A stretch of DNA of 37,099 bases. It comes from Sedimenticola selenatireducens (GTDB lineage: Bacteria; Pseudomonadota; Gammaproteobacteria; Chromatiales; Chromatiaceae). Both the position numbers and the translations under genes were made by a program. Positions within the stretch are counted from its first letter, which is position 1. Every line of letters begins with the position of its first letter. The notes under the pieces were generated by a model. The model worked only from the letters and a program-made list of their open reading frames with translations. It was not told where the DNA came from and did not search any database. Of the stretch, positions 19,063 to 36,935 are shown piece after piece. Location: NCBI RefSeq assembly GCF_007625115.1, contig NZ_VMNH01000020.1, forward strand, positions 1-37,099. Reading direction: 5' to 3'.

Positions 19063-19089
19063 ACCTATAACACACTGAGGAATAATATT

Positions 19090-19785: not shown

Positions 19786-19786
19786 T

Positions 19787-21673
19787 ATGCATAGCAGACT
19801 CACAATCAAACATAAACTTATACTGGTGATCGTTTTTACCTTGCTTGGTATTGCAATACAGGGTGTGGTGACCTTTGGTGTATTGGATGACATGAACAAG
19901 GCGTCTGATCGCCTGGCTTCATCACAACAGGCTGCACAAGTCATTGCCAGTATACAGGCAGAGGTGCTTACCCTGACTCTGCAAAAACAGGGTCTTAATA
20001 CGGGGAATGCAACGGATTATTTGAATAGTGTTAAGCAGCTTCAGAAAGAACAAAAACAGCAGATAGCGCTAATATCAAAATTGGTCAACTCTGCTGAACT
20101 GAGTGGAAAACTGGATGGAATGAAACAGCTTCTGGAGCGCTATCTGGATCAGCTTGTGCAATGGCATCAAATTCGAATGACGCTGGGATTGAATGATGCA
20201 TCCGGTTTGCTGGGTGTTGTGCGTGAAAAGGCCGCCGCTGCTGAATCACTGGTCAAAGGCTTTTCGGAAATGGAACGGACGCTGGCAAAAGTGATAGAGG
20301 TCGAGAAAGATAATCTTGGCAGCAGTCAACCTTCGGATGGGACGCTGTTTAACCAAGCCATGGATGAACTTAAAAATCTGATTGTCGAGTTAGAGTTTGA
20401 AGAGACCTTTATGCCAGGTATGGACGCTTATGCACTTGCTTATGGCCCGGCATTGGAAAGCTATACTGAACTAAAATCTATTGATCAATCCCTACTGGCA
20501 GCACTCCCTAAGATCGAAAGTGTTGTTATAGATGCCGCCGCATTTATTAATAAAGAGCTATTGGCGACTGCACGGAACAGTTCAGACAAGGTAAGCAGCG
20601 ATGCCCGTTATACGCTGGTGATAGCCGCAATCATCACCGCCGTACTGCTCGTAATGCTACTTTTTGCCATCGGTAGAATTATTACTAAAGGGCTTTCTGA
20701 AACAGTTGATCTCCTCACACGGATTGCTGAAGGCGACTTGACCGCCAGACTCTCTGGCTATGAAAAGAGCCGGGATGAATTCGGCCAGCTAGTACTCGCG
20801 GCCAATGGTATGGCAGCGCGTCTAGGCCAAGTAGTTCATCAAGCGGATGATGCCAGTATCGAGATGGCCGGGGTTTCACAAATACTGACCGATTCAACAG
20901 CACGGTTAGTCTCGGTTAATCAACAGATTGCTGATCAGACACAACAGGTCGCTGCAGCTTCTGAGGAGATGAGTGTTACCGCCAATGAAGTGGCAAGAAC
21001 AATCAATGATCTCAATCGATCAGCCAAGAAGACCTCTGATGCGGGCGTAGACAGTACCCGTTTGGTCGGGCGTACCGAAGAGGCTATTCAGGATATATCC
21101 CGGGTGGTCAATGGTGCTGCGGATATGGTCAATGCGCTAGGAGATCGCTCAAATCAGATTGGTATGGTCGTCGATGTTATCAATGAGATTGCAGAACAGA
21201 CCAATCTGCTTGCGCTTAATGCAGCGATAGAAGCTGCACGTGCTGGAGATGCGGGCCGCGGATTTGCTGTGGTCGCTGACGAGGTGCGCAATTTGGCCAC
21301 CAAGACAGTACAGGCGACTACGCAAATCACTACAGCTGTAGAAGAGATACAGCGTGGCAGTCGTGATGCGATGGAGGCCATGGATCATGGTCAACAGGCC
21401 GCTGCCCGAGGCGTCACTCTTGGCGAAGAGGCCAAGAGTTCTATGGAGGAGATCAGGATCCAAACGGCAAAGGCCTCAGAGCGCACAGAACAGATTGCCA
21501 CGGCCATAGAGCAGATGAGCGCGACCATTCGTGAGATCAGCAAAAGTATTGAACAGGTTGCGGCGGAAGTCGGTGACAGTCAGGGTGCTGCCAGTGATAT
21601 CGCCCAAACGACGCATGCTGTTGCAGAGAAGGCCGAGACGTTACGCGCGGTTACTGGCATGTTTAAGACCTGA
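19787..21673 (+). CDS. Methyl-accepting chemotaxis protein
   Basis: A 628-residue chemoreceptor. TM1 is at about residues 10-30. A helical periplasmic domain extends to about 275 ([22 protein letters not shown] resembles the helical sensory modules that bind small ligands or binding proteins). TM2 is at about 278-302, then HAMP. The signalling hairpin tip reads [38 protein letters not shown] in two runs near residue 465-500. It ends AVTGMFKT with no CheR pentapeptide. It is the third gene of an apparent operon, starting 1 base after the previous stop. Converging ureG is 26 bases away. Confidence 0.93.
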
Positions 21674-21699: not shown

Positions 21700-22341
21700 T
21701 CAAACGGCACAACACTCAGGTTTAGATTCTGTCAACATCCCACGATGCTCGATAAAGTCTATAATTTCCTGTACGCCTTGGCCTGTCTTCATATTTGAAA
21801 AGACAAACGGATTTGTCTTGCGCATGCGAAGTGTATCTTGCTCCATGACTTCCAACGATGCGCCGACATAGGGGGCCAGGTCGATTTTGTTGATGATCAA
21901 CAGATCAGAGCGGGTAATGCCAGGGCCTCCCTTGCGCGGCATTTTTTCTCCCTCGGCAACGTCCAATACATAAATAGTCAGATCTGCCAGTTCAGGACTG
22001 AAGGTGGCACTGAGGTTGTCGCCACCACTTTCAATGAAAACAATATCCAGATCGGGGAAACGTTCGCAGAGATCTTCAACGGCGGCCAGGTTCATTGAGG
22101 CATCTTCCCGGATGGCCGTATGGGGGCAGCCGCCTGTCTCTACACCAATGATGCGCGCTTCATCCAGTGCTTTATTATGCATGAGGAACTTGGCATCCTC
22201 CTGGGTGTAGATGTCATTGGTGACTACAGCAAGTTGATACTGATCACGCATCGCCTTACACAGGACCTCCAGCAGTGCGGTTTTACCAGAACCCACCGGG
22301 CCGCCGACGCCTATTCTCAAAGGTGTGTTTGTCGTTTTCAT
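21700..22341 (-). CDS. ureG: Urease accessory GTPase UreG
   Basis: A 213-residue SIMIBI-class GTPase that powers nickel delivery to urease. It has the P-loop [13 protein letters not shown] (about residues 13-25), [10 protein letters not shown], the nickel-binding CPHTAIRED at about 72-80 and the guanine-specificity NKIDLAPYV. The length is standard. AGAGAGG lies just before the ATG. It is the last gene of the urt-ure operon, 12 bases after ureF. The C-terminus ends with a pair of cysteines (PECCAV), an uncommon tail. Confidence 0.97.
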
Positions 22342-22353
22342 AGTGACCTCTCT

Positions 22354-23037
22354 TTAGGATCTGTAAATACGGGTGTATTGAGTTTCATGCAGGGTGCTGG
22401 CAATTGCCAATGCTGGACAAGCGTTACCGATGGAATCGTCTTCTATTTGTAGACCGGTCTTAACAATGTCTGGGATGTGGGTCGTCAATTGGGCAATGAT
22501 TTTCTGTCCCGCGGTCTGTCCCAGTGGCACGATCTTGACTCCGGCCAGGGTGATATTCTCAAGCCAGCCCCAAATAAAACCAGCTGCCGCCGCCGCAAGG
22601 GGGATGTTCCAAAAGTGCGCGGCCTGGGCGAATCCTGTTGATTGACACCCTTTGATCAGAGGCGCTATTTCTTTGGGAACTGCAATGCCCAGTTTTGGTA
22701 ACAGGCTTGCCAGTGCCCGGCCACGATTGCGTTCTTCCTCCCGCAGTTCCCGTGTCTCCCGGGATGCGATCAGATAGTGACTCCAATAGGTCAGCGCCTC
22801 GAACTCTTTTTCATCAATGGCCTTATAGAGACGGGCAAGAATGGGGATCTCCAAGTGCACCATATTGGTGGTCAATAGGTCGTCAAGCCATTCCATAAGT
22901 TGTGCTTCGTTTGTCACCCAGCCGCACTCAACAGCCCACTCCAAACCCTGTGAGTAGGTGAATCCACCAATGGGCAGTGATGGACTGACGAGATGCAGTA
23001 GCCGCAATTGCGCAAGCGTACAATCAGTGGTGACCAT
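22354..23037 (-). CDS. ureF: Urease accessory protein UreF
   Basis: A 227-residue UreF, which with UreD and UreG forms the complex that loads nickel and checks GTP-dependent activation. The N-terminal LHLVSPSLPIGGFTYSQGLE is diagnostic. SRETRELREEERNRGRALA and a helical C-terminus follow. ATG 23035-23037 (MVTTDCTLAQ) is chosen because AAGG lies about 10 bases upstream and the length is typical. The frame extends further, to 23097, inside ureE. It overlaps the ureE stop by 14 bases. Confidence 0.95.
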   Translation of the reverse strand: MVTTDCTLAQLRLLHLVSPSLPIGGFTYSQGLEWAVECGWVTNEAQLMEWLDDLLTTNMVHLEIPILARLYKAIDEKEFEALTYWSHYLIASRETRELREEERNRGRALASLLPKLGIAVPKEIAPLIKGCQSTGFAQAAHFWNIPLAAAAAGFIWGWLENITLAGVKIVPLGQTAGQKIIAQLTTHIPDIVKTGLQIEDDSIGNACPALAIASTLHETQYTRIYRS

Positions 23038-23488
23038 GGTGATGACCTTGATGTCCCTTTTCTGCACTGCCACCATAGGCACCCGGTTCAGGTTCAAAGG
23101 GTGCGGTAGAGACGGTTACTTCAAGCCCCAGTCCACGCAGCATTTCATCTAAAACATGGTCGTGCAGGTAGCTGATGCGCCCTGGTTCAATTTGTATTGA
23201 GACGTGACGATTACCCAGGTGATAACAGGCTCTCGATAGCAGATGTGCATCATCACTCATGATGGATGAGACAGGCTCTTCAGCCGCTTTGACTAGAATG
23301 ATCAGGCCATCTTCGGAACGTAACATTTCGCCATCTTTCAACGTTGTACCGCGCTGTAAAAAAAGCCCGGCGTCCTGCCCGTTATCCAGAGTCACCCGCA
23401 ATCGGCTTTTGATGCGATGCTGCAGGGGGAGAGTGAGCGTGGCATCGAATTGGTCGCTGCTGATGGTTTTTTCAGTGAGCTTAATCAT
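23024..23488 (-). CDS. ureE: Urease nickel chaperone UreE
   Basis: A 154-residue nickel metallochaperone. The N-terminal peptide-binding-like domain has LTLPLQHRIKSRLRVTLDNG and LFLQRGTTLKDGE. The C-terminal metal domain has ACYHLGNRHVSIQI with the conserved surface histidine, and LHDHVLDEMLRGLGL. It ends with the histidine-rich tail GHQGHHHGHH, which in other UreE proteins stores extra nickel. It lies 65 bases after ureC. Confidence 0.95.
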   Translation of the reverse strand: MIKLTEKTISSDQFDATLTLPLQHRIKSRLRVTLDNGQDAGLFLQRGTTLKDGEMLRSEDGLIILVKAAEEPVSSIMSDDAHLLSRACYHLGNRHVSIQIEPGRISYLHDHVLDEMLRGLGLEVTVSTAPFEPEPGAYGGSAEKGHQGHHHGHH

Positions 23489-23553
23489 AATAAATCTCTA
23501 CTCAATGTGTTGATCTGGAATTGTGCAACCTAACTGTCGATTTACCTGTCGGG

Positions 23554-25257
23554 CTAAAATAAAAAGTAGCGCTGCGCCATAGGTAAGCGTTCTGCCGGTT
23601 CACAGGTGAGTAATTGCCCATCTGCCCTTACCTGATAGGTTTGTGGATCCACTTCAATTTCAGGTTGATAACTGTTCAGCCGCATATCGCTTTTTGTGAC
23701 TGTCCGACAATTATTCACCACACCAATCAGTGACCTGAGCCCGAGTTGTTCCGAAATACCGGCTGTATATCCCGCCTGTGAGAGAAACGTCATGCGCGTG
23801 GAGAGACGGGCCGTTCCCAATGCCCCAAACATGGGTCGATAGTGCACCGGTTGTGGTGTGGGAATGGAGGCGTTGGGATCACCCATGGGTGCGGCGGAAA
23901 TCATGCCGCCTTTTATGATCAGGCTCGGTTTGGTACCAAACATAGCTGGCTTCCAAAGTACCAGGTCGGCCAGCTTGCCTACTTCTACTGACCCAACTTC
24001 ATGTGAAATGCCATGGGTAATCGCCGGGTTGATGGTGTATTTGGCAATATAACGTTTGGCCCGAAGGTTATCATTTCTGGCGCTGTCACCCGCCAGGCTC
24101 CCGCGTTGTTCTTTCATCTTGTGCGCTGTCTGCCAGGTACGGGTAATCACCTCACCCACACGTCCCATCGCCTGGGAGTCAGAAGCGATCATGGAAAATG
24201 CCCCGAGGTCATGCAGGATATCTTCAGCCGCAATGGTTTCACGACGGATGCGTGATTCTGCAAAGGCCACATCTTCTGCTATGTTCGGATCAAGGTGATG
24301 ACAGACCATCAGCATATCGAGATGTTCATCAATGGTGTTGATCGTATAAGGGCGTGTTGGATTGGTGGAGGAGGGTAATACATTCGATTGACCGCATGCC
24401 TTGATGATGTCAGGTGCATGCCCGCCACCTGCGCCTTCGGTGTGATAGGTGTGAATGGTACGGCCCTTCATTGCCGCCAGCGTGTGCTCAACAAAGCCAG
24501 ATTCATTCAGTGTGTCCGTGTGAATGGCAACCTGTACGTCGAATTGATCAGCCACCGTCAAGCAGTTATCAATGGTGGCCGGTGTAGTGCCCCAGTCTTC
24601 ATGCAGCTTAAGACCAATAGCTCCGGCCACTACCTGTTCTTCCAGGGGGAGGGGCAGGCTGGCATTGCCCTTTCCAAGAAAACCGATATTCATGGGCAAG
24701 GCTTCTGCTGACTCCAGCATGCGATGGATATGCCAGGGGCCGGGTGTACAGGTGGTGGCGTTGGTACCCGTGGCCGGACCGGTGCCACCCCCGAGCATGG
24801 TAGTGACGCCTGACATCAGTGCATCGTCCACCTGTTGTGGACAGATGAAGTGGATATGGGAATCGATACCCCCTGCCGTAAGGATGTTGCCTTCTCCGGC
24901 TATCGCTTCGGTACCGGCGCCAATGATGATATTCACACCCGGTTGGATATCTGGATTACCGGCCTTGCCAATGGCACAGATGCGACCGTTTTTGATACCT
25001 ACATCGGCTTTGACAATGCCCCAGTGATCAAGGATCAGCGCATTGGTGATGACGGTATCCACCACCTCATCTGCGGGGCGCTGGCCCTGGCCCATGCCAT
25101 CGCGGATCACTTTTCCTCCGCCAAATTTTACTTCGTCGCCATAGCGGGTATGGTCATGTTCCACTTCGATCAGCAGTGCTGTGTCTCCGAGCCGTACGCG
25201 ATCGCCGGTGGTAGGACCGTACATCTCGGCATAGGCTTGATTACTGATGATTGCCAT
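23554..25257 (-). CDS. ureC: Urease catalytic alpha subunit UreC
   Basis: A 567-residue urease catalytic subunit that hydrolyses urea to ammonia and carbamate in the cytoplasm. Numbering matches Klebsiella urease exactly. The nickel ligands are H134 and H136 (SHIHF), carbamylated K217 (GLKLHEDWG), H246, H272 and D360 (ASDSQAMGR). The mobile flap has C319 and H320 (MVCHHLDP). All active-site residues are present, so the enzyme should be functional. It starts 3 bases after the fused ureAB gene. Confidence 0.98.
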
Positions 25258-25260
25258 TGA

Positions 25261-25899
25261 TTAATCCTCCAGGTTGCCCATCACGGCACCGTTAAAACCG
25301 TAGACCTTGCGGTCGCCTGCATAAGCTACCAGGGTCACTTGACGGGTTTGGCCAGGCTCAAACCGAACGGCCGTACCGGCGGCAATGTCCAGTCGAAATC
25401 CCCAGGCCATGCCGCGGTCAAATGTCAGTGCCGGGTTGGTTTCGGCAAAGTGGTAGTGGGAACCCACCTGGATTGGGCGGTCGCCCGTATTGGCCACTGA
25501 AAGCGACACTGTCTCTCTACCACTATTAAGTTCTCGATTGCCGGGTTCAGCGATGATCTCTCCTGGAATGATGGCGTCTGTCTGAATATCCTTTGTTGGC
25601 AGGATCGGGTCGTGTACGGTGACCAGCTTGGTGCCATCGGGAAAAGTGGCTTCCACCTGTACGTCATGGATCATGCTGGCGACACCTTCCATGACATCCT
25701 CGGTAGTGAGTAGCGTGCGGCCGTAATCCATCAACTCGGCAACAGTCCTGCCATCCCGTGCACCTTCCATGATCGCTGCACTGATATAGGCAACCGCCTC
25801 GGGGTGATTCAGTTTCACACCTCTTGCCTTGCGGCGTTCTGCCAGCAGAGCGGCGGTAAAAAGTAACAGTTTGTCTTTTTCTCTTGGTGTGAGATCCAT
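25261..25899 (-). CDS. ureAB: Fused urease gamma-beta subunit (UreA-UreB)
   Basis: A single 212-residue frame joins both small urease subunits. Residues 1-100 correspond to UreA/gamma ([54 protein letters not shown]). A linker of about 10 residues follows ([10 protein letters not shown]). Residues from about 111 correspond to UreB/beta ([44 protein letters not shown]). No stop, frameshift or internal start with a good ribosome site was seen at the join. Most bacteria encode these separately; Helicobacter has a comparable fusion. AGGAG precedes the ATG. It follows ureD by 16 bases. Confidence 0.95.
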
Positions 25900-25915
25900 G
25901 CAAGACTCCTCGGTG

Positions 25916-26764
25916 TTATGTATGCCAGATACGTGGGGTGCAGGGTGGGCGCTTGACCACGGCCGGTCTTAATGCTTTCCATAGATCGCAAAAAAGTGTG
26001 CGGGCTGATTCCGTTGAATCGCCCAGGTAGCGTGCAATCAATAGACCGTCTATCAGGGTAATAGCCAACTCATGTTTATGGTGTTCTGGAACCAGGCTGC
26101 GAATTGACTCTACAAGGCCGGTTTCCTGAGTTGTGGCATAGAGCGTTCCGAACACTGGCTGGCCCCTCAGTTTGGCGCATGAGAAGAGATCCTTCTGGTC
26201 TTTTATCACCAGCCGTTCATGCAGTAACGGCAAGCCATCACGAAATAGGCTGAAGCGGAAGCGTGCTTCGCCATGATCGAAGGACTCTTGCACGCTGGGT
26301 CGTCCAAGACAGTTGATCTCCCAGCCGATGAAGGTCGCATCGCCTTTGAGATGAACGGTAGTATGTAATTCTGATTTTGCCCCCGGGAAAAAAATATTCT
26401 CCTGCGGCAGCCACTCCAGACAGCCATCAGATACCGTGAGCGTTTGATGTTGTGATGACCAGGCTTCACTGGTTCTGTAGAACTTGGTTGCGCCAGGTGT
26501 AGTAATCAGGGCGGCGGACTTTTTACGGACATCAATGTTGATGTGTAACTGATCGCCACCGGCAACGCCGCCGGGTGGATGCAGCAGGTAAACATGACAC
26601 AGATCTTGTTCGGGATAGAGTGCCCGTTGAACAGTCAGGGGTCCTTTGCGATGACGCTCTACGAGGTGTGTCTTTCCTGCGATCTTGCTGAATCCAAGGT
26701 GCAACTGGGCCAGCCAGTCACTGCTTTTTATAGCGTTGGCGGGGATTGAGGAGTGCGCGACCAT
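25916..26764 (-). CDS. ureD: Urease accessory protein UreD
   Basis: A 282-residue UreD (UreH) scaffold that docks on urease and receives nickel from UreF-UreG. Family motifs are [40 protein letters not shown] and [19 protein letters not shown]. The start codon shares one base with the urtE stop (TGATG at 26762-26766), so translation is probably coupled. Its place directly after the urea importer shows that uptake and urease genes form one operon. Confidence 0.95.
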
Positions 26765-27459
26765 CAGACCGTCAGATACTGTTTAATTAAATCATCACCG
26801 AGGTCACCCATTGCGCCGGCAGACACATTGCGACCACGATCAAGAATGCAAAAGTGATCGGCAACTTTACGTGCAAACGGAAGTTTTTGTTCCACCAGCA
26901 AAACAGTTAGGCCAATGTCACGATTGAGTCGAAGAATAATGTCGCCGATCTCTTGGACGATATTGGGTTGAATCCCTTCTGTCGGTTCATCAAGGATCAA
27001 TAGTTTTGGATCGATAACCAAGGCACGCCCAATGGCCAGTTGTTGCTGTTGACCACCGGAAAGATCACCGCCGCGACGTCCAAGCATCTCTTTTAATACC
27101 GGGAAAAGTTCAAAAATGAATTCGGGAATCTGCTGGCTCTTTTCCCTTCGTGCTGGCAGGCCAATGCGCAGGTTTTCTTCTACTGTCAACGTCGGGAAGA
27201 TTTGCCGGCCTTGTGGCACATAACCGATACCCAGAGGGGCTCTGCGTTCAGCAATCTGTCGGTTGAGTGATTGACCCTCGAACAGGATCTCGCCGGATCG
27301 GATGGGCAACAAACCCATGACACACTGGAGTAGAGTGGTTTTACCCACACCATTACGGCCCATCAGGCAGGTGCATTTACCCTCGACTACCTGCAGGTCA
27401 AGATCCCATAGCGTATGTGATTCGCCGTAGAATTGATTGATTTGTTCAATATTGAGCAT
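26764..27459 (-). CDS. urtE: Urea ABC transporter ATPase UrtE
   Basis: A 231-residue LivF-type ATPase, the second ATPase of the urea importer. It has Walker A GRNGVGKTT (about residues 34-42), signature LSGGQQQQLAIGRAL, Walker B LLILDEPTEGIQPNIV and a switch-region VLLVEQKLPFARKVADH. The phrase EPTEGIQPNIVQEIG is characteristic of UrtE. It is 14 bases after urtD and overlaps ureD by one base. Confidence 0.95.
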   Translation of the reverse strand: MLNIEQINQFYGESHTLWDLDLQVVEGKCTCLMGRNGVGKTTLLQCVMGLLPIRSGEILFEGQSLNRQIAERRAPLGIGYVPQGRQIFPTLTVEENLRIGLPARREKSQQIPEFIFELFPVLKEMLGRRGGDLSGGQQQQLAIGRALVIDPKLLILDEPTEGIQPNIVQEIGDIILRLNRDIGLTVLLVEQKLPFARKVADHFCILDRGRNVSAGAMGDLGDDLIKQYLTV

Positions 27460-27473
27460 GTTTCCCGGCCTCG

Positions 27474-28304
27474 CTATTCGCCCAAGTAGACTTCGATAAC
27501 ACGTGGATCAGCCTGAACTTCATCCATACTGCCCTCGGCCAGTACACTGCCCTGATGCAACACGGTGACTTTACGGGCAATGGAGCGAACAAAATCCATA
27601 TCATGTTCTACGACGACGACAGTGTGGGTTCCCGCAAGTGAAGTCAGCAGTTCAGCGGTACGATCCATCTCTTGATGTGTCATACCGGCAACCGGCTCGT
27701 CCACTAACAGCAGTTTTGGGCTTTGCATCAGTAACATGCCAATCTCAAGCCACTGTTTCTGGCCATGGGAGAGGGCGCCGGCATAGAGATTGCGCTGTTC
27801 CTGCAGTGCGATGATCTCTAAAACTTCGTCGATTTTATCCCGCTGTATACCGTTAAGTTGTGCCGTTAGGGTAGGCCAGATACGTTTATCACCGGCCATG
27901 GAGAGTTCAAGATTTTCAAACACTGTGTGGGATTCAAATACAGTGGGTTTCTGGAACTTTCTACCGATACCGGCCTGGGCGATCTCGGGTTCACTCAACT
28001 GCATCAGATTAATATTTTGTCCGAAGAAGGCGCTGCCTTTGTCCGGCCGGGTCTTACCGGTGATGATGTCCATCATGGTGGTTTTGCCCGCACCATTGGG
28101 ACCAATAATGCAACGCAGCTCACCGGCATCAATATAGAGATTCAGATCGTTAATAGCCTTGAAACCATCAAAGCTGACCGAGATATCCTCAAGGTAGAGA
28201 ATGGTGCCATGGCTCAGGTCTACTTCAAGACCCGTGGTCTGCAACATAAAGTCAAACACTCGATCCCGTCGCATCACTTCACGAAGATTATCCAATGAGT
28301 TCAT
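27474..28304 (-). CDS. urtD: Urea ABC transporter ATPase UrtD
   Basis: A 276-residue LivG-type ATPase. An N-terminal segment of about 35 residues precedes the ATPase fold, as is usual in UrtD. It has Walker A GPNGAGKTTMMD at about residues 68-79, signature LSHGQKQWLEIGMLL, Walker B LLLVDEPVAGM and VVEHDMDFVRSIA. GRKFQKPTVFESHTVFENL is typical of urea importers. Its ATG overlaps the urtC stop by 4 bases (ATGA). Confidence 0.95.
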   Translation of the reverse strand: MNSLDNLREVMRRDRVFDFMLQTTGLEVDLSHGTILYLEDISVSFDGFKAINDLNLYIDAGELRCIIGPNGAGKTTMMDIITGKTRPDKGSAFFGQNINLMQLSEPEIAQAGIGRKFQKPTVFESHTVFENLELSMAGDKRIWPTLTAQLNGIQRDKIDEVLEIIALQEQRNLYAGALSHGQKQWLEIGMLLMQSPKLLLVDEPVAGMTHQEMDRTAELLTSLAGTHTVVVVEHDMDFVRSIARKVTVLHQGSVLAEGSMDEVQADPRVIEVYLGE

Positions 28305-29389
28305 GATTGCGCCTCTTTTCGTTTCATCAGACCAATCACACCTTTCGGCAGGAGAATGGTGACCAGTACAAAGAGTGCGCCCAATGCAAACAGCCAGACC
28401 TCCGGTAGTGCGCCAGTCAGATAGGTTTTTCCATAGTTCACCATGAGTGCCCCGACAGCGGCTCCATAGAGCGTGCCCCGACCACCAACGGCTACCCAGA
28501 TAACCATCTCAATAGAGTTGAGTGGGGAAAACTCTCCGGGATTGATAATGCCCACTTGAGGGACATAGAGCGCTCCCGCGATACCGGCCAGTACAGCGGA
28601 AAAAGTAAAGATGGCCAGCTTTACATGTTCGACCCGGTAACCGATAAAGCGCGTACGGTCCTCGGCATCACGTACGGCCACGGCAACCCGTCCTAATCGT
28701 GAAGTAACAATAGCGCGGCAAATGATATAGCCAAGGGCAAGCATCAGTGCTGTGACGATAAACAGACCAATACGCGTGCTGTCGGCCTGCAGATTAAAAC
28801 CAAGCAGCTCTTTAAAGTCGGTCAATCCATTGTTACCACCAAAGCCCATCTCGTTGCGGAAGAAGGCGAGCATTAAGGCATAGGTTAATGCTTGGGTCAT
28901 GATAGAGAGATAGACGCCGGTGACGCGTGAGCGAAAAGCCAGCCAGCCAAAAACAAAAGCCAGCAACCCAGGTGCTACCATTACCATCAGTATGGCGAAC
29001 CAGAACATGTCAAAGCCGTACCAAAACCAGGGGAGGGCGTCCCAGTTCAGAAAGACCATAAAGTCAGGTAGCAGGGGATCACCATAGACGCCACGGTCGC
29101 CAATTTGGCGCATCAGGTACATACCCATGGCATAGCCGCCGAGCGCAAAAAAAGCGCCGTGGCCAAGACTAAGGATGCCCAGATAACCCCAGGCCAGATC
29201 CACGGCAATTGCCAGCAGTGCGAAGGCGAGGTACTTACCCAGCAGTGTGACCGTGTAAGTCGATATGTGCAGTGGATGCCCCTCAGGCAACAGTAGATTC
29301 AGCAAAGGAATCAGTACGGTTGCCAGAGCCAGCACGGAAAGAAACAGCTGGCCACCACGATCGTGTTTTATGAGGTTGATAATACGCAT
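28301..29389 (-). CDS. urtC: Urea ABC transporter permease UrtC
   Basis: A 362-residue LivM-type inner-membrane permease with about 9-10 hydrophobic segments. The typical LivM core LGYLGILSLGHGAFFALGGYA is represented by WGYLGILSLGHGAFFALGGY, and the coupling helix by SRLGRVAVAVRDAEDRTRFIGY. FGGNNGLTDFKELLGF is a UrtC hallmark. It follows urtB by 3 bases with GAGGG before the ATG. Confidence 0.95.
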   Translation of the reverse strand: MRIINLIKHDRGGQLFLSVLALATVLIPLLNLLLPEGHPLHISTYTVTLLGKYLAFALLAIAVDLAWGYLGILSLGHGAFFALGGYAMGMYLMRQIGDRGVYGDPLLPDFMVFLNWDALPWFWYGFDMFWFAILMVMVAPGLLAFVFGWLAFRSRVTGVYLSIMTQALTYALMLAFFRNEMGFGGNNGLTDFKELLGFNLQADSTRIGLFIVTALMLALGYIICRAIVTSRLGRVAVAVRDAEDRTRFIGYRVEHVKLAIFTFSAVLAGIAGALYVPQVGIINPGEFSPLNSIEMVIWVAVGGRGTLYGAAVGALMVNYGKTYLTGALPEVWLFALGALFVLVTILLPKGVIGLMKRKEAQS

Positions 29390-29392
29390 GCT

Positions 29393-31000
29393 TCAACCCT
29401 CGGCCGCCCGGCCTTTTTGCGGGAACAGTCCCCTGGGCCGTTTCTGAATAAAGAGAATAATGAACACCAGTACCAGGATCTTGGCCAATACCGCACCCGA
29501 CCAGGGTTCAAGAAACTTGTTGGCAATGCCCAGTCCCATACCACTGACCAGTGTCCCCCATAGATTGCCCACACCACCAAATACGACCACCATAAAGCTG
29601 TCGATAATGTAGGCCTGCCCGAGATTGGGTCCTACATTGGTCAGCTGACTTAAAGCAACACCTGCTATGCCTGCAATACCTGAGCCCAGGCCAAAGGTCA
29701 TGGCATCAACCCATTCGGAACGGACACCCATGGCACGGGCCATGGCGCGGTTCTGCGAGACTGCTCGCACTTGAAGTCCCAGCACACTTTTTTTCAATAC
29801 CAGATATAAAACACCGAATACCAACAAGCAGAATGCAATGATGTAAAGTCGGTTTAGCGTAAGTGATAACGCACTGTTGATCTCCCAGCTACCGCTCATC
29901 CATGTTGGCGTTTCGACAGAACGATTAAGTGGTGAGAAAATGGTACGCACGGTTTGCTGTAGAATGAGGCTGATACCAAAAGTGGCCAGCAATGTCTCAA
30001 GTGAACGTCCATAAAGAAAACGGATCACGCCACGCTCGATCGCAATGCCAACCAATCCAGAGATGACAAATGCGGCGGGTATGGAGAGCAATAAAGAGAG
30101 GCCAATGTCATTGGGTAACAGCAGTTGCATGACATAGGTGGTGTAGGCGCCAATCATGATCAATTCCCCATGGGCCATATTGATGACGCCCATAACACCA
30201 AAGGTAATCGCGAGGCCAATGGCTGCCAATACCAGAACCGATCCGAGGCTGAGTCCAAAAAATATATTTTCTACCAGACTATATAGCTGCAACTTGGCTT
30301 GGATGTTATCAAGCACTTGTTTAATATCGGCAGCAAAGGCCTTGTCAGTCGTCTGCTGTTGCAGCTTCCTCAGGCCATTACGGACAGCGGGATGTATGTT
30401 TCCATCAAGGACTGCTACTGCGGTGAGGCGTTCATTCTTGTCTCCCGAGGTAAGTTTTCCCAGGGCGATGACAATTTCCATCGCCTCACGAATTTCAGGA
30501 ACTTGTTCATCAATGAGTAGGGTCTGTATCAGTGTCGCACTTTCCGCTGAGGGGTTATCCAGCATTTGATTGACTGCGGCTAAACGCTTATCGGCAAGGG
30601 GATTACGCAGATCCATCATGGCCAATACATTGCGGATTTGACTGCGCATTCTGTTATTCAGTGAGATTTTCTTGGCAGCGCTTTTTTTGATTGGTCCGAT
30701 GTCTTCATGGGTAAGTGCATTGGTTGCAGTAAGAGGCTCTGCATCTGGTGCAAGTATGATGAGTTTTTTGTCTCGCTTAAGATAGTAAAGGCGGCTTTCC
30801 TGCAGGGCGATCAGTATCTTTTCGGCCTGTTCGCTTCCCTCCGCTTCAAGTAATTCAATTGCTCGGTACTTATCCGTAAACTTTTTAGATTTAAGTAACT
30901 CTGCCGCATCTGCTATGGGATGGCCACTTGCGTAGGTTGGATTAAGCGATACCACAGTGATACCTATAATAAGCAGTATCCACGTTATTAGCTTCGCCAT
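29393..31000 (-). CDS. urtB: Urea ABC transporter permease UrtB with periplasmic domain
   Basis: A 535-residue LivH-type permease. A signal-like hydrophobic segment (about residues 1-24) leads into an exported domain of about 215 residues made of helical, HEAT-like repeats (ADKRLAAVNQMLDNPSAESA; NERLTAVAVLDGNIHPAVR). The permease proper begins near residue 240 (NIFFGLSLGSVLVLAAIGLA) and includes NMAHGELIMIGAYTTYV and AVSQNRAMARAMGV. Such N-terminal extensions are usual in proteobacterial UrtB and absent from amino-acid LivH. It is separated from urtA by 131 bases with a hairpin. Confidence 0.94.
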   Translation of the reverse strand: MAKLITWILLIIGITVVSLNPTYASGHPIADAAELLKSKKFTDKYRAIELLEAEGSEQAEKILIALQESRLYYLKRDKKLIILAPDAEPLTATNALTHEDIGPIKKSAAKKISLNNRMRSQIRNVLAMMDLRNPLADKRLAAVNQMLDNPSAESATLIQTLLIDEQVPEIREAMEIVIALGKLTSGDKNERLTAVAVLDGNIHPAVRNGLRKLQQQTTDKAFAADIKQVLDNIQAKLQLYSLVENIFFGLSLGSVLVLAAIGLAITFGVMGVINMAHGELIMIGAYTTYVMQLLLPNDIGLSLLLSIPAAFVISGLVGIAIERGVIRFLYGRSLETLLATFGISLILQQTVRTIFSPLNRSVETPTWMSGSWEINSALSLTLNRLYIIAFCLLVFGVLYLVLKKSVLGLQVRAVSQNRAMARAMGVRSEWVDAMTFGLGSGIAGIAGVALSQLTNVGPNLGQAYIIDSFMVVVFGGVGNLWGTLVSGMGLGIANKFLEPWSGAVLAKILVLVFIILFIQKRPRGLFPQKGRAAEG

Positions 31001-31131: not shown

Positions 31132-32421
31132 TTATTCGTAATTCTGGCCTGAACATTTGGCCGTTTTTACGTTGTAGTTGCCGCACGATAGTGGCGCTCT
31201 CCAGTCGGAGATGATGTCCTTCGATCCTGGGAGGTAGTCTGACCAAGCATCACCTGCAACCAATCCTGACGTCTGCCATACCACCTCAAACTGACCGTTA
31301 CCCTGAATCTCACCGATCAGCACGGGCTTGGTCACATGGTGGTTAGGCAGCATGGATGAGTAGCCTCCGGTCAGATTGGGAACAGAGACGCCGATAATGG
31401 CTTCCTGAACAGCATCTGAATTCGTCGTGCCAGCTTTCTCAACGGCCTTAACCCACATATTGAAGCCGATATAGTGTGCCTCCATTGGATCGTTGGTTAC
31501 ACGTTTATCGTTTTTGATGAAGGCTTTCCACTCGCTGATGAAATTGCTGTTGGCCTCGTCATCCACGCTCATGAAATAGTTCCAGGCGGCGAGATGTCCA
31601 ACCAGTGGTTTTGTATCGATGCCGGAAAGCTCTTCTTCTCCCACTGAGAAGGCAACCACAGGGATATCCTCGGCAGAGAGGCCTTGGTTACCCAGCTCTT
31701 TATAGAAAGGGACGTTAGCGTCACCGTTGATGGTGGAGACAACAGCGGTCTTCACACCCGTGGAGCCGAACTTCTTAATATCGGAAACGATGGATTGCCA
31801 ATCTGAATGACCGAATGGGGTGTAGTTGATCATGATATCTTTATCCGCCACGCCTTTTGCTTTCAGATAGGCTTCGAGGATTTTGTTGGTGGTACGGGGA
31901 TAGACATAGTCTGTACCCGCCAGCACCCAACGTTTTACACCAATATCATTCATAAGGTAGTCAACGGCAGGAATGGCCTGCTGATTGGGGGCCGCTCCGG
32001 TGTAGAAGACATTTTTGGAGGACTCTTCACCTTCGTACTGAACTGGATAAAACAGTAACCCATTCAGTTCTTCAACAACCGGCAGTACCGATTTTCTTGA
32101 AACCGATGTCCAGTTACCAAATATGGCGGCGACTTTATGCTGGCTGAGTAGTTCACGACCTTTTTCTGCAAACAGAGGCCAGTTGGATGCAGGGTCAACC
32201 ACTACAGGTTCCAGTTGTTTGCCGAGCAGCCCGCCTTTTTTGTTTTGCTCTTCGATCAGCATCAACATCGTGTCTTTTAGTGTGGTTTCACTGATCGCCA
32301 TGGTGCCGGACAGGGAGTGCAGGATTCCCACTTTGATGGTCTCAGCAGCCTGCGCATTACTGATGCCCGCTAGGGCGATAGCCATCGAAATCAGGCTGCT
32401 TTTCAGATAACTTTTTTTCAT
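31132..32421 (-). CDS. urtA: Urea-binding protein UrtA
   Basis: A 429-residue periplasmic urea-binding protein of the branched-chain amino-acid type. A Sec signal peptide covers about residues 1-25 (ending GISNAQA). The family signature runs ETIKVGILHSLSGTMAISE, NWTSVSRKSVLPVVEE, LFYPVQYEGEESSKNV and AGTDYVYPRTTNKILEAYL. The C-terminus retains HHVTKPVLIGEIQGNGQF. The ATG at 32419-32421 has GGAGAG about 8 bases upstream and puts the signal peptide at the terminus. The longer open frame to 32484 is rejected. First gene of the urea operon. Confidence 0.96.
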   Translation of the reverse strand: MKKSYLKSSLISMAIALAGISNAQAAETIKVGILHSLSGTMAISETTLKDTMLMLIEEQNKKGGLLGKQLEPVVVDPASNWPLFAEKGRELLSQHKVAAIFGNWTSVSRKSVLPVVEELNGLLFYPVQYEGEESSKNVFYTGAAPNQQAIPAVDYLMNDIGVKRWVLAGTDYVYPRTTNKILEAYLKAKGVADKDIMINYTPFGHSDWQSIVSDIKKFGSTGVKTAVVSTINGDANVPFYKELGNQGLSAEDIPVVAFSVGEEELSGIDTKPLVGHLAAWNYFMSVDDEANSNFISEWKAFIKNDKRVTNDPMEAHYIGFNMWVKAVEKAGTTNSDAVQEAIIGVSVPNLTGGYSSMLPNHHVTKPVLIGEIQGNGQFEVVWQTSGLVAGDAWSDYLPGSKDIISDWRAPLSCGNYNVKTAKCSGQNYE

Positions 32422-32465: not shown

Positions 32466-32481
32466 TGGCACTGGAATTGCT
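32466..32481 (+). promoter_or_regulatory. Sigma-54 (-24/-12) promoter toward the permease-kinase gene
   Basis: TGGCACTGGAATTGCT matches the consensus TGGCAC-N5-TTGCW with GG and GC correctly 10 bases apart. It points rightward, so transcription would start near 32492 and leave a leader of about 150 bases before the permease-kinase gene. No comparable element was found on the minus strand for urtA. Confidence 0.65.
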
Positions 32482-32568: not shown

Positions 32569-32588
32569 CATACGTCAAATGACGTATG
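32569..32588. promoter_or_regulatory. 20-bp palindrome, candidate response-regulator operator
   Basis: CATACGTCAAATGACGTATG consists of two exact 9-base inverted arms with a 2-base spacer. It lies 148 bases upstream of the urtA ATG in the spacer between urtA and the two-component genes. The size and symmetry suit a dimer of a LuxR/FixJ-type regulator such as the one encoded at 36030-36935. This is inference only. Confidence 0.5.
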
Positions 32589-32620: not shown

Positions 32621-32637
32621 TGCCCCAAAAAGGTGCA
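32621..32637. promoter_or_regulatory. NtrC-like binding site
   Basis: TGCCCCAAAAAGGTGCA differs at two positions from the classic NtrC site TGCACCAAAATGGTGCA. It lies just before the permease-kinase ATG and about 200 bases upstream of urtA. NtrC sites can act at a distance and from either side, so it could serve the sigma-54 promoter in the same spacer. Confidence 0.5.
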
Positions 32638-32644
32638 TTGCAAA

Positions 32645-35600
32645 ATGAAAAGCGACGAGATGAAGCACAAGATGGCTACCCACCCAGTGATCAATCCAAC
32701 AAAGCGCCGCTACAATCAATGGGTAGCCAATGAAACGTTGGAAGATTTTGCGCTGCGTTATACCGCAACTCGTGCACGAAAATGGTCAGATGCACGCGTG
32801 GCTAATACCGCTTTGGGTATTGTCTCCTTTCTTGCTTTAGAGGCGATCGGCGGTGCGATCACGCTGCAGTATGGATTTACCAATTCCGTGTGGGCCATTG
32901 CTGTGGTCTGCGCCCTCATTTTCCTGTTTGGGCTACCCATTTGTTACCATGCCGCCCGATCAGGATTGGATATTGATCTGCTCACCCGTGGCGCTGGTTT
33001 TGGCTATATCGGATCAACGATTTCATCGCTGATCTATGCCTCTTTCACCTTTATCTTCTTTGCACTGGAAGCCGCCATAATGTCCATGGCCCTGCAACTG
33101 CTGCTGGGCATTCCCTTGGCATGGGGCTATGTCATCAGTGCTTTGATCGTCATTCCACTGGCCACCCATGGCATTACCCGGATCAGTCGTTTTCAGTTGT
33201 GGACACAACCTTTATGGTTATTGCTGCAGCTCGCGCCCTTGCTGTTCATTCTTTATCACCATGGTGAGGCCGTTAGGGACTGGACTGAATTTACCGGTCT
33301 TGACCAGGCAGGTGAAGGCGGCTTCAACCTGCTGTTGTTTGGTGCAGCGGCCGCGGTCATTTTTCCGTTGATTGCCCAGAATGGTGAACAGGTGGATTTT
33401 CTGCGCTTTTTACCGAAGGAGCAGGAGGGTTCGGGTAAATGGTGGTTGGCACTTACCCTTGCAGGGCCGGGATGGACGCTGTTCGGCGTGATCAAGTTAC
33501 TGGCAGGTTCGTTTCTCGCGGTGCTGGCGATCCAGCAAGGGGTTGCTGCTGAACTTGCCGATGATCCCTCGCATATGTATCGGGTTGCCTTCAGCTATAT
33601 AACCGTTCATCCAGAGGTGGCGCTGGTTTTGACGGCTACCTTCGTTATCATTTCCCAGCTCAAAATCAATGTGACCAATGCGTACGCAGGATCACTCGCC
33701 TGGTCCAACTTTTTTTCGCGTATTACCCATCACCACCCAGGTCGAATAGTCTGGCTCTTCTTCAATGTCGCCATTGCGCTTCTGTTGATGGAGTTGGGGT
33801 TGTATCAGGCCTTTGAAAATATCCTGATTACCTATTCTACGTTGGTACTGGCCTGGATGGGATCACTCGTGGCCGACTTGGTGGTCAATCGCCCATTGGG
33901 TTTGCGGCCCAGACACATGGAATTTAAACGCGGCCGCTTGTACGACATCAATCCGGTAGGGGTGGGTTCCATGGCGATTGCCTCTTTAGTCGGCATCATT
34001 GGCCAGCTTGGCATGCTTGGCCCTACCGTGAAGGCGCTTTCTCCCTTCATCTCTCTTTTTATCCCCTTTATTACCGCACCGCTTATCGCCTTTTTTACCG
34101 GTGGGCGCTACTACCTTGTGAGGGATCATAACCACACAGACACGCATCACGCGGAGCACTGTGCAATCTGTGCGAATAGTTTTGAAGGCCCGGATATGAT
34201 CGATTGCCCGGTTTATGGGGGCGATATCTGCTCGCTCTGTTGTGCCCTTGACGCCAGTTGCCGTGACCGTTGCAGGCCAAAAGCCCATCTGCAGGCACAA
34301 TTGGTCCAACTCATTACCCGGCTTTTTCCCCGTGTGCGCCGGTTACCGTTTAATCCAACGGTGGTTCATTTCCTTGTGATCCTGGTGATGACCAGCTTAC
34401 TCATTGCCGGACTGTTCTACATTGTCTATCGCTCCGGTGATTATGCTTCAGTTCAACAAGCGGCGATTGCAGGGGCTGCATTGAAAAAGACATTTTTGTT
34501 GCTGTTTATTGTTAATGGCGTGCTGGTATGGCTCTACGTATTGGCACAGGATAGTAAACGAAAGGCGCTGGATGATTCACTCCATCGCGCAGATCAGCTG
34601 CACCAAGAGGTCGCCGCACATAAAAAGACAACCAGGCAACTACAGGATGCCAAAGAGGTGGCCGTGACCGCCAATCAGGCAAAGAGCCGGTACTTGTCGG
34701 GCGTCAGTCATGAGTTGCGAACACCGCTTAACACGGTGCTGGGCTATGCACAGTTATTGAAAGCCGATGTGCAATTAGCGGCACGGAATCGTAAGGCGGC
34801 CGAGGTGATCCATCGCAATGGTGAACACCTTTCTGATGTTATTGAGGGATTACTGGAGATTTCAAAAATTGAGGCCAGGCGTATCGACATACTGCGTGAT
34901 GAAGTGAATCTGCGCATGTTAGTTGATCAGTTGGCTGAGACCTTCACCGTGCAGGCTCAGTCAAAGAATTTACAGTTTGATTATCAGTGTGATGCTGATC
35001 TCCCCAACTGTGTACTGACTGATGAAAAGCGTCTTCGACAGATTCTTATGAATATGCTTTCCAATGCTGTCAAGTATACCCAGACTGGTAAGGTGCAATT
35101 TCACATCAGCTATCGAAACGAGGTAGCGAAATTCTTTGTTAATGATACGGGTATTGGTATTAAAGAGGTGGACAGGGAACGCATCTACGCCCCATTCGAG
35201 CGTATCCAGAATGAAGAGACGCGCTTTGTAACGGGTACCGGTTTGGGACTAACCATCTCACGACTGCTTTGCACCTTAATGGGTGGCGACCTCTCCCTTA
35301 AAAGCGAGTTCGGTCAAGGCAGTGCCTTTACGTTTGCCGTCATGTTGCCCTTTGTCTATAAACCTACCCGTCCGGTTGTTTCTAAACAACGCATACTTGG
35401 CTATACCGGAGAACGAAAAAGACTCCTGGTGGTGGATGATGAGCCTTGGCATCGTGCGCTAATATGTGATTTCCTGACCCCGCTAGGATTTACCCTGCTT
35501 GATGCGGAGAGTGCGCAACAAGGATTGCAGCTTGCTGAAGAGAACGTTATCGATCTGTTCCTGCTGGATGTGCGTATGCCATTAATGGATGGTTGGGAGC

Positions 35601-36040
35601 TTGCGCAGAGGCTGCGCAGCCGCAGTGTAGATGCACCGATATTTATGCTCTCGGGTAATGCAATAGAAACTCAACGTGAAGAATTCACCAGCCGACTGCA
35701 TAATGAGTATCTGATTAAGCCGATTAATTTGGAGAGCCTGCTAGAAAAGATTGGTGCGGCCTTGAATCTGCAGTGGGTTTTTGATCTGGACGCTGTGGAC
35801 GCATCACAGAAAATACTGGCTATTTCGGAAGCAGAGGAGAGTGCACCTCAACGAGCCGATCTGGATGAATTGATATCCATGGCGAAAATTGGCTACCTCA
35901 ATGGGGTACTGGAAAAATTGGATGAGCTGGAAATGAGATACAGCAATTCTACTCATCTGCGCTATCTCAAATCTCGCGCCGAGGCCTGTGACTTGGAAGG
36001 ACTGATCCGTACTATCAGAGCGTTCAATTATGCCACTTGA
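32645..36040 (+). CDS. Permease-histidine kinase-receiver fusion (NCS1-like sensor)
   Basis: A 1131-residue hybrid protein. Residues about 30-490 form a multi-spanning permease (about 12 segments) resembling NCS1 nucleobase/allantoin transporters (FLALEAIGGAITLQYGF; LLTRGAGFGYIGSTISSLIYA; KINVTNAYAGSLAWSNF). Residues 506-543 are cysteine-rich (CAIC, CPVYGGDICSLCC, CRDRC) and probably bind metal. Two further membrane segments, a coiled coil and a full kinase follow: H-box SHELRTP with H689, N-box NMLSNAVKYT, VNDTGIGI, GTGLGLTIS. The receiver has D975 (LLDVRMP) and the lysine in LIKPIN; a helical tail of about 100 residues ends the protein. ATG 32645 has AAGG 11 bases upstream; GTG 32633 and ATG 32672 are alternatives. 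It is divergent from urtA and overlaps the next gene by 11 bases. Confidence 0.88.
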   Translation: MKSDEMKHKMATHPVINPTKRRYNQWVANETLEDFALRYTATRARKWSDARVANTALGIVSFLALEAIGGAITLQYGFTNSVWAIAVVCALIFLFGLPICYHAARSGLDIDLLTRGAGFGYIGSTISSLIYASFTFIFFALEAAIMSMALQLLLGIPLAWGYVISALIVIPLATHGITRISRFQLWTQPLWLLLQLAPLLFILYHHGEAVRDWTEFTGLDQAGEGGFNLLLFGAAAAVIFPLIAQNGEQVDFLRFLPKEQEGSGKWWLALTLAGPGWTLFGVIKLLAGSFLAVLAIQQGVAAELADDPSHMYRVAFSYITVHPEVALVLTATFVIISQLKINVTNAYAGSLAWSNFFSRITHHHPGRIVWLFFNVAIALLLMELGLYQAFENILITYSTLVLAWMGSLVADLVVNRPLGLRPRHMEFKRGRLYDINPVGVGSMAIASLVGIIGQLGMLGPTVKALSPFISLFIPFITAPLIAFFTGGRYYLVRDHNHTDTHHAEHCAICANSFEGPDMIDCPVYGGDICSLCCALDASCRDRCRPKAHLQAQLVQLITRLFPRVRRLPFNPTVVHFLVILVMTSLLIAGLFYIVYRSGDYASVQQAAIAGAALKKTFLLLFIVNGVLVWLYVLAQDSKRKALDDSLHRADQLHQEVAAHKKTTRQLQDAKEVAVTANQAKSRYLSGVSHELRTPLNTVLGYAQLLKADVQLAARNRKAAEVIHRNGEHLSDVIEGLLEISKIEARRIDILRDEVNLRMLVDQLAETFTVQAQSKNLQFDYQCDADLPNCVLTDEKRLRQILMNMLSNAVKYTQTGKVQFHISYRNEVAKFFVNDTGIGIKEVDRERIYAPFERIQNEETRFVTGTGLGLTISRLLCTLMGGDLSLKSEFGQGSAFTFAVMLPFVYKPTRPVVSKQRILGYTGERKRLLVVDDEPWHRALICDFLTPLGFTLLDAESAQQGLQLAEENVIDLFLLDVRMPLMDGWELAQRLRSRSVDAPIFMLSGNAIETQREEFTSRLHNEYLIKPINLESLLEKIGAALNLQWVFDLDAVDASQKILAISEAEESAPQRADLDELISMAKIGYLNGVLEKLDELEMRYSNSTHLRYLKSRAEACDLEGLIRTIRAFNYAT

Positions 36041-36935
36041 TCGAAGTAATCCCATTGTATTGGTAGTCGATGACTCGCCCGATTCTCTGGGCATGATTCA
36101 TACGGCATTGCAGACTGGAGGGTACACTGTTCTTGTAGCACTTAATGGAAAGCAGGCGCTGGACATTGTCGAAAGAATACAGCCAGATGTGGTGTTGATG
36201 GATGCAGTGATGCCGGTGATGGATGGTTTCGAAAGCTGCCGGCAGATGCGTAATCTGCTTCCTTTAACACCTATCTTGTTTATGACGGGTTTAACCGATC
36301 CTGAGCATATCGTAAAAGCATTTGATCATGGTGGGACTGATTACATCACCAAACCGCTTAATCCCGATGAATTACTTGCACGCATCACGGCTCACGTGCG
36401 CAGTGCACATCTGATTGGTGATGCGCGCGCGGCCTTGGACTCTGCACGACAACATGTGATCTCAGTGAATGGGAGAGGAGAGGTGTTGTGGACAACTCCG
36501 GAAGCGCGGGAGCTGCTGGCGGGTAATGGCATTGAGGTAGCTGTGGGTGAGTTTCGTTTTAGCAGTGATATTATGGCTTGGTTAGGCAGCCAGGGTCAGA
36601 TGCAGGATCTGATTATTCATACCCCACAGCACCCGCTGATTATCCGCTACTTCAAAGCAGTACACGCTGATGAACACCTGCTGCGTATTGTGGATCAACA
36701 TCAGTTGCTTGATGCATCAGTGCTCGAGGCTGCGCTGCCTGTGACGAAGCGTGAAGCCGAGGTGTTGCTCTGGGTTGCACAAGGTAAGACCAATCGTGAG
36801 ATCGGTGAGATACTGACGCTGAGTCCACGCACGGTCAATAAACACTTGGAACAGATCTACAGTAAGATCCAGGTAGATAATCGCGCGGCCGCCACTTCGA
36901 TTGCCATTCAATCCCTGTTAGGTATGTCGGTATAA
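36030..36935 (+). CDS. LuxR-type response regulator
   Basis: A 301-residue transcription factor. The N-terminal receiver (about residues 8-122) has the acidic pair VVDDS, phospho-acceptor D58 (VLMDAVMP), the T in LFMTGL and the lysine in ITKPLNP. A middle section of about 100 residues (ISVNGRGEVLWTTPEARELL) resembles a degenerate PAS fold. The C-terminal LuxR helix-turn-helix is KREAEVLLWVAQGKTNREIG, then LSPRTVNKHLEQIYSKI. Its start lies 11 bases inside the preceding kinase gene, so the two are translationally coupled and are a cognate pair. Targets are probably the urt-ure operon and its own operon. Confidence 0.92.
   Translation: MPLDRSNPIVLVVDDSPDSLGMIHTALQTGGYTVLVALNGKQALDIVERIQPDVVLMDAVMPVMDGFESCRQMRNLLPLTPILFMTGLTDPEHIVKAFDHGGTDYITKPLNPDELLARITAHVRSAHLIGDARAALDSARQHVISVNGRGEVLWTTPEARELLAGNGIEVAVGEFRFSSDIMAWLGSQGQMQDLIIHTPQHPLIIRYFKAVHADEHLLRIVDQHQLLDASVLEAALPVTKREAEVLLWVAQGKTNREIGEILTLSPRTVNKHLEQIYSKIQVDNRAAATSIAIQSLLGMSV

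Follow-up and report, generated by a model that had tools for sequence, protein, structure and literature searches.

A hybrid sensor kinase encoded in a 37,099-nucleotide stretch of the Sedimenticola selenatireducens genome (contig NZ_VMNH01000020.1, positions 1 to 37,099; hereafter the window) is likely to be a permease-shaped receptor for urea that switches its neighbouring genes through a LuxR-type regulator and a palindromic operator, with short-chain amides as the probable ligands of relatives in sister lineages. The source genome comprises 4.03 Mb in 41 contigs. The kinase frame is open for 1135 codons from GTG 32633, with ATG 32645, 32660 and 32672 as possible alternative starts. Residues are numbered here from the GTG; an earlier note on this DNA counted from ATG 32645, so that its cysteines C506–C543 are C510–C547 below. 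The two genes and their parts are as follows.

32633..36040, forward strand: hybrid sensor kinase, comprising an NCS1-like permease, a cassette with eight cysteines, a further pair of helices, and HisKA, HATPase and receiver (REC) domains; the start may be 32645 or 32672
32702..34117, forward strand: NCS1-like permease domain, residues 24–495 (profile, fold and conservation)
34160..34273, forward strand: eight-cysteine cassette C510–C547, apparently in place of STAC and presumably cytoplasmic
34355..34567, forward strand: predicted helices 575–601 and 607–645 (AlphaFold model)
34679..35341, forward strand: HisKA (H693) and HATPase_c (Pfam, alignment)
35426..35752, forward strand: receiver domain (D979) (Pfam, alignment)
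36030..36935, forward strand: REC–LuxR response regulator with recognition-helix residue N270 (Pfam, co-variation)

Pfam located HisKA (residues 683–748), HATPase_c (796–903) and Response_reg (932–1040) in the kinase, which has the phospho-accepting His (H693) and the receiver Asp (D979) of a hybrid histidine kinase. The following gene overlaps it by 11 bases and encodes a REC and a GerE (LuxR) domain, placing its product among the LuxR/NarL response regulators. We interpret the predicted helices 575–601 and 607–645 as another pair of transmembrane segments that lead into the kinase. The earlier note had described this chain, from permease to receiver, together with the overlapping regulator, and the Pfam, fold and profile comparisons bear out both. 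The same architecture is preserved in five other full-length orthologues (L002–L006), four from the same genus (99, 83, 83 and 69% identity) and one from another family (56%).

Searching Pfam and PDB with the permease sequence alone returned nothing useful. No Pfam family exceeded its cut-off over this half, two matches to domains of unknown function lay far below theirs (E up to 10), and the window protein matched neither PF02133 (NCS1) at E up to 10 nor the SSF (SLC5) permease domain; a weak match to cytosine permease was found in NCBIfam (E 3e-9). Comparison of profiles was more informative: using hhalign, a 76-sequence family profile matched eight PF02133 proteins with 99.0% probability (E 3e-18, 395 columns). 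The family alignment holds 75 of 78 relatives, three near-identical Bradyrhizobium rows being left out. For an AlphaFold model (predicted local distance difference test 84.9, predicted template modelling score 0.87), Foldseek placed CodB or Mhp1 at all of ranks 1–5 among PDB structures, with SLC5 structures ranked lower. In addition, a distant stand-alone member of the family, L157, does match PF02133 (31.8 bits against a gathering score of 23.5). The profile match, the fold matches and L157 identify the permease as an NCS1 homologue, though not as a canonical NCS1 transporter. This agrees with the class proposed in the earlier note, which had also set it apart from the SSS-type permease of CbrA. 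The twelve transmembrane helices (TM1–12) were assigned by homology to NCS1 rather than by a topology predictor. A scan of viral contigs found no relative.

We next considered the ligand pocket, counting conservation over 107 family sequences (L122, L142 and L159, which lack the N-terminus, were left out). E146, Q249, E252, Q253, D255, R258, K344 and N349 are invariant in all 107. Position equivalences with Mhp1 rest on an alignment of 17% identity, in which K344 falls, without gaps nearby, on T313 in TM8; a shift of one residue would place it on S312. S312 and T313 are sodium ligands in Mhp1, and this Ser/Thr pair is, by the alignment, not kept in the family. K344 therefore implies, if the alignment holds, a sodium-independent receptor or permease. 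In the same alignment Q121 of Mhp1 corresponds to E146, N318 to N349, W117 to F142 (kept in 103/107) and W220, in TM6 and with a gap nearby, to I247, a position that is non-aromatic in 106/107. Q121 is a substrate residue of Mhp1, and W117 and W220 form the aromatic pair that holds the ring of the substrate. A Glu in place of the substrate Gln/Asn and the loss of one aromatic stacker would thus suit a small, non-aromatic amide.

The non-aromatic W220 position also bears on another candidate group of ligands, namely nucleobases, hydantoin and allantoin, whose breakdown yields urea; the earlier note had suggested a nucleobase or allantoin breakdown product. Characterised NCS1 transporters, which share the fold, have such ligands, and nucleobases, hydantoin and allantoin all carry an N-CO-N group, which speaks for them. 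However, the pocket appears changed, formamidase and amidase contexts dominate around the family (see below), and no purine or allantoin genes were recognised among 40 recurrent neighbour clusters, a weak test made by eye on the first 70 residues. We therefore regard these compounds as highly improbable ligands, and small amides as the better candidates.

Gene neighbourhood points the same way. In the window, the kinase and regulator genes diverge from a urea import and urease operon, as the earlier note had recognised:

31132..32421, reverse strand: urtA, substrate-binding protein of a urea ATP-binding cassette (ABC) importer; probable start 32421
26764..31000, reverse strand: urtBCDE
21700..26764, reverse strand: ureD, fused ureAB, ureC, ureE, ureF and ureG

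To gauge how general this is, we used 398 genomes drawn evenly from the phylum (Pseudomonadota, judged by named kin), with loci not chosen by neighbourhood. Of 59 matches, 56 form the locus count, and the other three (two in G470, one in G316) adjoin fmdA/amiE and ure genes. Urea or short-chain-amide genes lay near 54 of the 56 loci (41 with a divergent binding protein gene and 13 others); the remaining two are cut contigs. One locus counted among the 54, L300, encodes a 29% relative and has weak neighbour matches, and L242–L244 (G575 and G576), chosen on purpose, stand outside the 56. Assuming one or two such operons in 4 Mb of genome, about 1% of 20-kb stretches would contain one by chance.

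Two further sets gave similar results. A scan of named genomes matched at least 596 stretches, at least 575 of them coding for a relative; the set used here consists of the best 80 and leans to close relatives. A UrtA/FmdD-type binding protein is encoded in 70 of the 80 loci (divergently in 69) and four more adjoin urease only, so that 74 have urea/amide genes; of the six without, four are cut contigs, and L114 and L132 have full flanks. Among 27 loci from genomes of the order and class, 14 had a divergent binding protein gene, 4 urease and 1 fmdA/amiE (19/27 associated), and of the 8 without such genes, L142, L145 and L154 have just 22 to 1592 bases upstream. The earlier note had named homologues lying mostly beside unrelated pathways as an outcome damaging to its proposal, and the 54 of 56 loci of the phylum draw show the opposite. 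The link to urea genes stands, yet the family is broader than that proposal, since the commonest neighbourhood is of the amide type (fmdA, amiE) and most members lie by formamidase/amidase operons; the FmdA and AmiE examples are equivalog matches far over cut-off. One amide-type binding protein beside a formamidase (L102 8564-9823) scores above the cut-off of TIGR03407, the UrtA model (536 bits against 492.75). The model therefore fails to distinguish importers of urea from those of amides, and this protein may also carry urea.

The kinase family was found in 52/398 genomes of the phylum draw, 18/369 of the class and 11/210 of the order, one of these last (G198) with a short fragment containing a stop. 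Gamma-, Beta- and Alphaproteobacteria contain members, as do two cyanobacteria. In a tree of 106 permease halves (the near-copy L136 was left out), the window sequence belongs to a 16-row clade (Shimodaira–Hasegawa approximate likelihood ratio test (SH-aLRT) 98), in which 12 rows are urt-associated and the other 4 have no urt in the locus DNA. This clade is nested in a tree whose rows are mostly associated with amide genes, L110 and L128 are urt rows placed elsewhere in it, and a separate five-row clade (SH-aLRT 100) adjoins urease without urt. Because urt and urease rows are scattered in this way, the sensor seems to have changed more than once between ligands of similar chemistry. Within the genus, UrtA exceeded its cut-off in 5/5 kinase-positive genomes against 0/4 kinase-negative ones, two of which are just 65% and 78% complete; within the order, it was found in 9/11 kinase-positive and 78/199 kinase-negative genomes.

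The strongest regulatory evidence, which the earlier note did not contain, is a palindrome in the gap between urtA and the kinase gene:

32569..32588, no strand assigned: palindrome CATACGTCA-AA-TGACGTATG, the predicted operator, with its 16-bp core TACGTCAAATGACGTA at 32571-32586

Of the 11 kinase-positive genomes of the order, 7 contain the exact core, against none of the 199 kinase-negative ones; each of the 7 has a single copy, and every copy falls in the gap between the kinase and binding protein genes. Matches of at least 13 of the 16 bases were found in 55/83 family intergenics, compared with 2/804 random stretches of the same loci, and in 22/41 intergenics of the phylum draw (counted without control stretches). 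Genome G405 carries the kinase, urt and ure genes on three contigs. Its urt operon has an exact site upstream, and a site with one mismatch immediately precedes the run that ends with ureC (the ureDAB genes there were identified by eye); another one-mismatch site (L190 5805-5820) adjoins no recognisable urea/amide gene. In G470, a two-mismatch site separates the kinase from a stand-alone permease gene preceding fmdA-fmdB-amiE. As a separate observation, G405 has between operator and urtA (L189 7530-8717) a frame of 396 residues whose product looks secreted and may be a porin, and a similar-looking frame in L137 belongs to a cluster of six loci.

Presence of the site co-varies with a residue in the recognition helix of the regulator. 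Leaving out 15 of the 83 intergenics, for which no regulator helix-turn-helix was mapped, residue 270 is Asn in 51 loci, and 46 of these have a site with at least 13 matches; with Asp (16 loci) or Glu (1 locus) at this position, 0/17 do. In 11 of the 16 Asp270 loci the best-matching stretch, not compared with control stretches, reads TACGCAAGAT(C/T)GCGTA. These patterns point to the LuxR-type regulator as the binder of the site, and an N270D exchange would be expected to shift its preference toward TACGCAAGATCGCGTA. Could the palindrome instead serve another regulator, with the kinase pair acting elsewhere? The operator is a prediction from sequence, and the G405 contig that carries the kinase has no site at up to two mismatches, as this explanation would allow. 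Nevertheless, both the confinement of exact sites to kinase-positive genomes and the co-variation with the recognition helix tell against it, and we consider it very unlikely.

Between permease and kinase lies the cassette, with the pattern C-x2-C-x11-C-x7-C-x2-CC-x5-C-x3-C. Among the 107 family sequences, 106 have the full set of eight cysteines, the sole exception being L157, whose cassette is degenerate. As it follows the twelfth helix in NCS1 topology, the cassette should be cytoplasmic. It stands where CbrA has STAC, as the earlier note had stated; Pfam gave no STAC match (residues 1–566 at E up to 10; whole protein at 0.001), a negative that presupposes a STAC model in the library, which was not ascertained. 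Searching 274 genomes of the class with the cassette only gave 19 matches in 16 genomes, and since the permease profile had already picked up every locus in which they fall, the cassette appears to be a dedicated module of this kinase family. No confident match was found in Pfam or PDB. Weak Pfam matches (best E 0.039) were to Prok-RING_1 in 3/18 members and zf-HIT in 1, and PDB matches, covering the CxxC part only, were mostly C2H2 zinc fingers. The cassette would most simply be a two-zinc structural coupler.

The earlier note had raised metal sensing, with nickel in mind, and a cassette that tunes urease to the supply of nickel or another metal would account for eight nearly invariant cysteines; one stand-alone member also adjoins the nickel transporter gene NicO in a urease cluster. 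That member, though, is L157, the one with the degenerate cassette. Moreover, 61 of 62 amide-type loci of the named set have no urease gene in the locus DNA (the rest of the genomes was not searched) and the cassette is just as invariant in them, which makes nickel sensing unlikely; its presumed cytoplasmic position and the zinc-finger nature of its weak profile matches are further points against it. We accordingly give metal sensing very little credence and prefer a structural role in coupling.

A more serious alternative is that the kinase does control urea/amide genes while its permease is a true transporter, which merely modulates a kinase reading a cytoplasmic signal such as nitrogen status or transport flux, as proposed for CbrA. 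According to the available part of one report, CbrA transports histidine and its signalling stays active after deletion of the SLC5 domain (PMC7096432). Kinase-less members of the family beside hydrolase genes likewise suggest transport competence. Such stand-alone permeases are rare, 57 of the 59 phylum-draw matches lying in frames of at least 894 residues. A kinase-less copy faces the kinase in G470, G575 and G576; in G470 it leads into fmdA-fmdB-amiE, the G575 and G576 stretches also contain fmdA and amiE, and G575 has another copy ahead of a PF01425 amidase gene. In G486, L157 (8083-11457) lies between ureG and NicO at the end of the urease cluster. Judging by these arrangements, urea or amides may be handled by the permease fold itself. 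On the other side, the sensor part (about residues 1–620) is better conserved than the whole chain (64–87% against 56–83% identity to the window protein in five sequences), and Pfam found no PAS or other cytoplasmic sensor in the window protein. A transporting permease with a cytoplasmic signal is thus possible and, in our judgement, clearly less probable than a permease-shaped receptor.

As to the family as a whole, we lean towards a branch of the NCS1 superfamily that recognises urea and short-chain amides, mostly as receptor kinases with their own eight-cysteine module and operator and, rarely, as stand-alone permeases replacing an ABC importer. Other outputs are found behind the same NCS1-cysteine head: PAS-GGDEF-EAL (L150 6852-10520) and PAS-PAS-kinase-receiver (L149 9023-12838). 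Two observations stand apart. L271 3156-9347 encodes an NCS1-cysteine kinase without receiver; a REC-kinase gene comes next, the gene of an OmpR-type regulator is divergent, and the stretch adjoins fmdA. L168 206-3867 has a canonical NCS1 permease gene between those for an aliphatic amidase and a formamidase, so that transport of short amides may extend to ordinary NCS1 proteins.

Architecture, predicted fold, conservation, genomic association and the conserved palindrome come directly from the sequences, and together they suggest the following mechanism. The NCS1-fold domain would bind urea, or in sister lineages formamide or acetamide. By analogy with CbrA, a conformational change would then run through the cytoplasmic cassette, probably held by structural zinc, and the long helix to H693 of HisKA. 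Phosphate would pass, either directly or via the fused receiver, to the product of the overlapping regulator gene, and the regulator would bind TACGTCAAATGACGTA between the two transcription units, switching urtABCDE-ure here and fmd/ami operons elsewhere, most likely by activating them in the presence of urea or small amides.

Several observations weigh against this interpretation. Most UrtA-bearing genomes of the order (78/87) have no kinase, which is therefore not needed for urt. Flanked loci without urea/amide genes exist (L114, L132, L143, L148, L149, L150 and L153); UrtA is encoded elsewhere in the genomes of L143, L148 and L153, and is absent at E 1e-60 from G346 (L149 and L150) and G448 (L154, with 1.6 kb upstream). 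No site of at least 13 matches was found in 28/83 family intergenics or in 19/41 of the phylum draw, and L120, L129 and L147, from the urease-only clade, have Lys270 and no canonical site in the 500 bases upstream. At up to two mismatches, 18 genomes gave 24 matches to the site and 31 to the pattern read backwards, so that only exact, one-mismatch or correctly placed sites are informative. The Asp270 loci all belong to one clade, and the co-variation thus represents few events. Finally, the pocket equivalences depend on the 17%-identity alignment, and the rare stand-alone permeases could be degenerate sensors.

Two further elements lie near the start of the kinase gene:

32466..32481, forward strand: exact sigma-54-type -24/-12 match TGGCACTGGAATTGCT, facing the kinase
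32621..32637, no strand assigned: NtrC-like site with one mismatch, within chance

The first, shared without change by the other four aligned loci of the genus, suggests nitrogen control of the sensor gene itself; matches with at most one mismatch numbered 4 (one exact) against 2.0 expected. NtrC-like matches with up to two mismatches numbered 3 against 2.4 expected in the window, and we give this site no weight because the count lies within chance. In the urease operon, ureA and ureB (gamma and beta subunits) share one frame (25261-25899), a fusion otherwise familiar from Helicobacter. Beside the urease genes, window positions 18076-21673 encode in one run an ABC_sub_bind protein, a 231-residue protein without Pfam match and a protein with a methyl-accepting chemotaxis domain, possibly a chemoreceptor operon. 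Genomes of the order also contain UrtA-like binding domains in open frames of about 1100–1300 residues (for example G116:C1:1439348-1440400), which may represent another kind of urea/amide sensor with signalling domains attached.

Urea and short amides rank among the major sources of organic nitrogen, and we know of no dedicated bacterial receptor for external urea. If our interpretation is correct, such a receptor, whose ligand pocket can be tested and which has its own regulator and 16-bp operator, is present in about one-eighth of the sampled phylum genomes (52/398), as part of a widespread class of dedicated sensors for external urea and formamide in which outputs (kinase, GGDEF-EAL) are swapped behind one ligand head. 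A head with alternative outputs would also be a candidate urea/amide biosensor. In addition, a further transporter fold among fused-kinase transceptors, joined through another coupling domain, would make fold-to-kinase coupling comparable across independent inventions.

The open-licence PubMed Central literature, as far as its texts were available, yielded no description of an NCS1-fused kinase or the TACGTCAAATGACGTA operator, which is no proof of absence. The fmdCABDEF and urtABCDE operons of Methylophilus are of the types that the kinase family adjoins; the regulator named in that paper is putative and within the cluster, and the word 'sensor' is absent from the main text. In Ectopseudomonas guguanensis G3, urt operon III is a second urtABCDE beside genes for a hybrid kinase and a LuxR-type regulator (PMC13296017). 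This kinase is probably a family member, and the part of the account available lists the genes without domain analysis, ligand or operator.

Mhp1 and CodB, as NCS1 transporters, share the fold and remote sequence homology with the window protein, which differs in lacking a PF02133 match, in K344 at an aligned sodium-ligand position, in the apparent loss of the TM6 aromatic and in its fused kinase. In Ks-Amt5, as far as the source (PMC5764959) could be consulted, a transporter fold that has lost transport serves as an ammonium receptor fused to a kinase. The likeness lies in the recruitment of a transporter fold as a receptor for a nitrogen nutrient; Ks-Amt5 differs in its Amt fold, its 269-residue kinase part, its ligand and, in the text available, the lack of a STAC or similar linker. 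CbrA and CrbS, like the window protein, join a large LeuT-fold permease domain to a (hybrid) kinase, and CrbS pairs with a LuxR-type regulator, CrbR, that needs an inverted repeat (PMC5715377, as available in part). Their permease is of the SLC5 type, whereas that of the window protein is NCS1-like; the eight-cysteine cassette and two extra helices seem to take the place of STAC, and the likely targets here are urea/amide genes. CbrA is described, in the accessible part of its report, as sodium-independent with a lysine in the Na2 site (PMC13022988), a point of likeness; the lysine here aligns with a TM8 sodium ligand of Mhp1. The NCS1-cysteine kinase is thus a further variety among transporter-fused kinases, alongside CbrA and Ks-Amt5.

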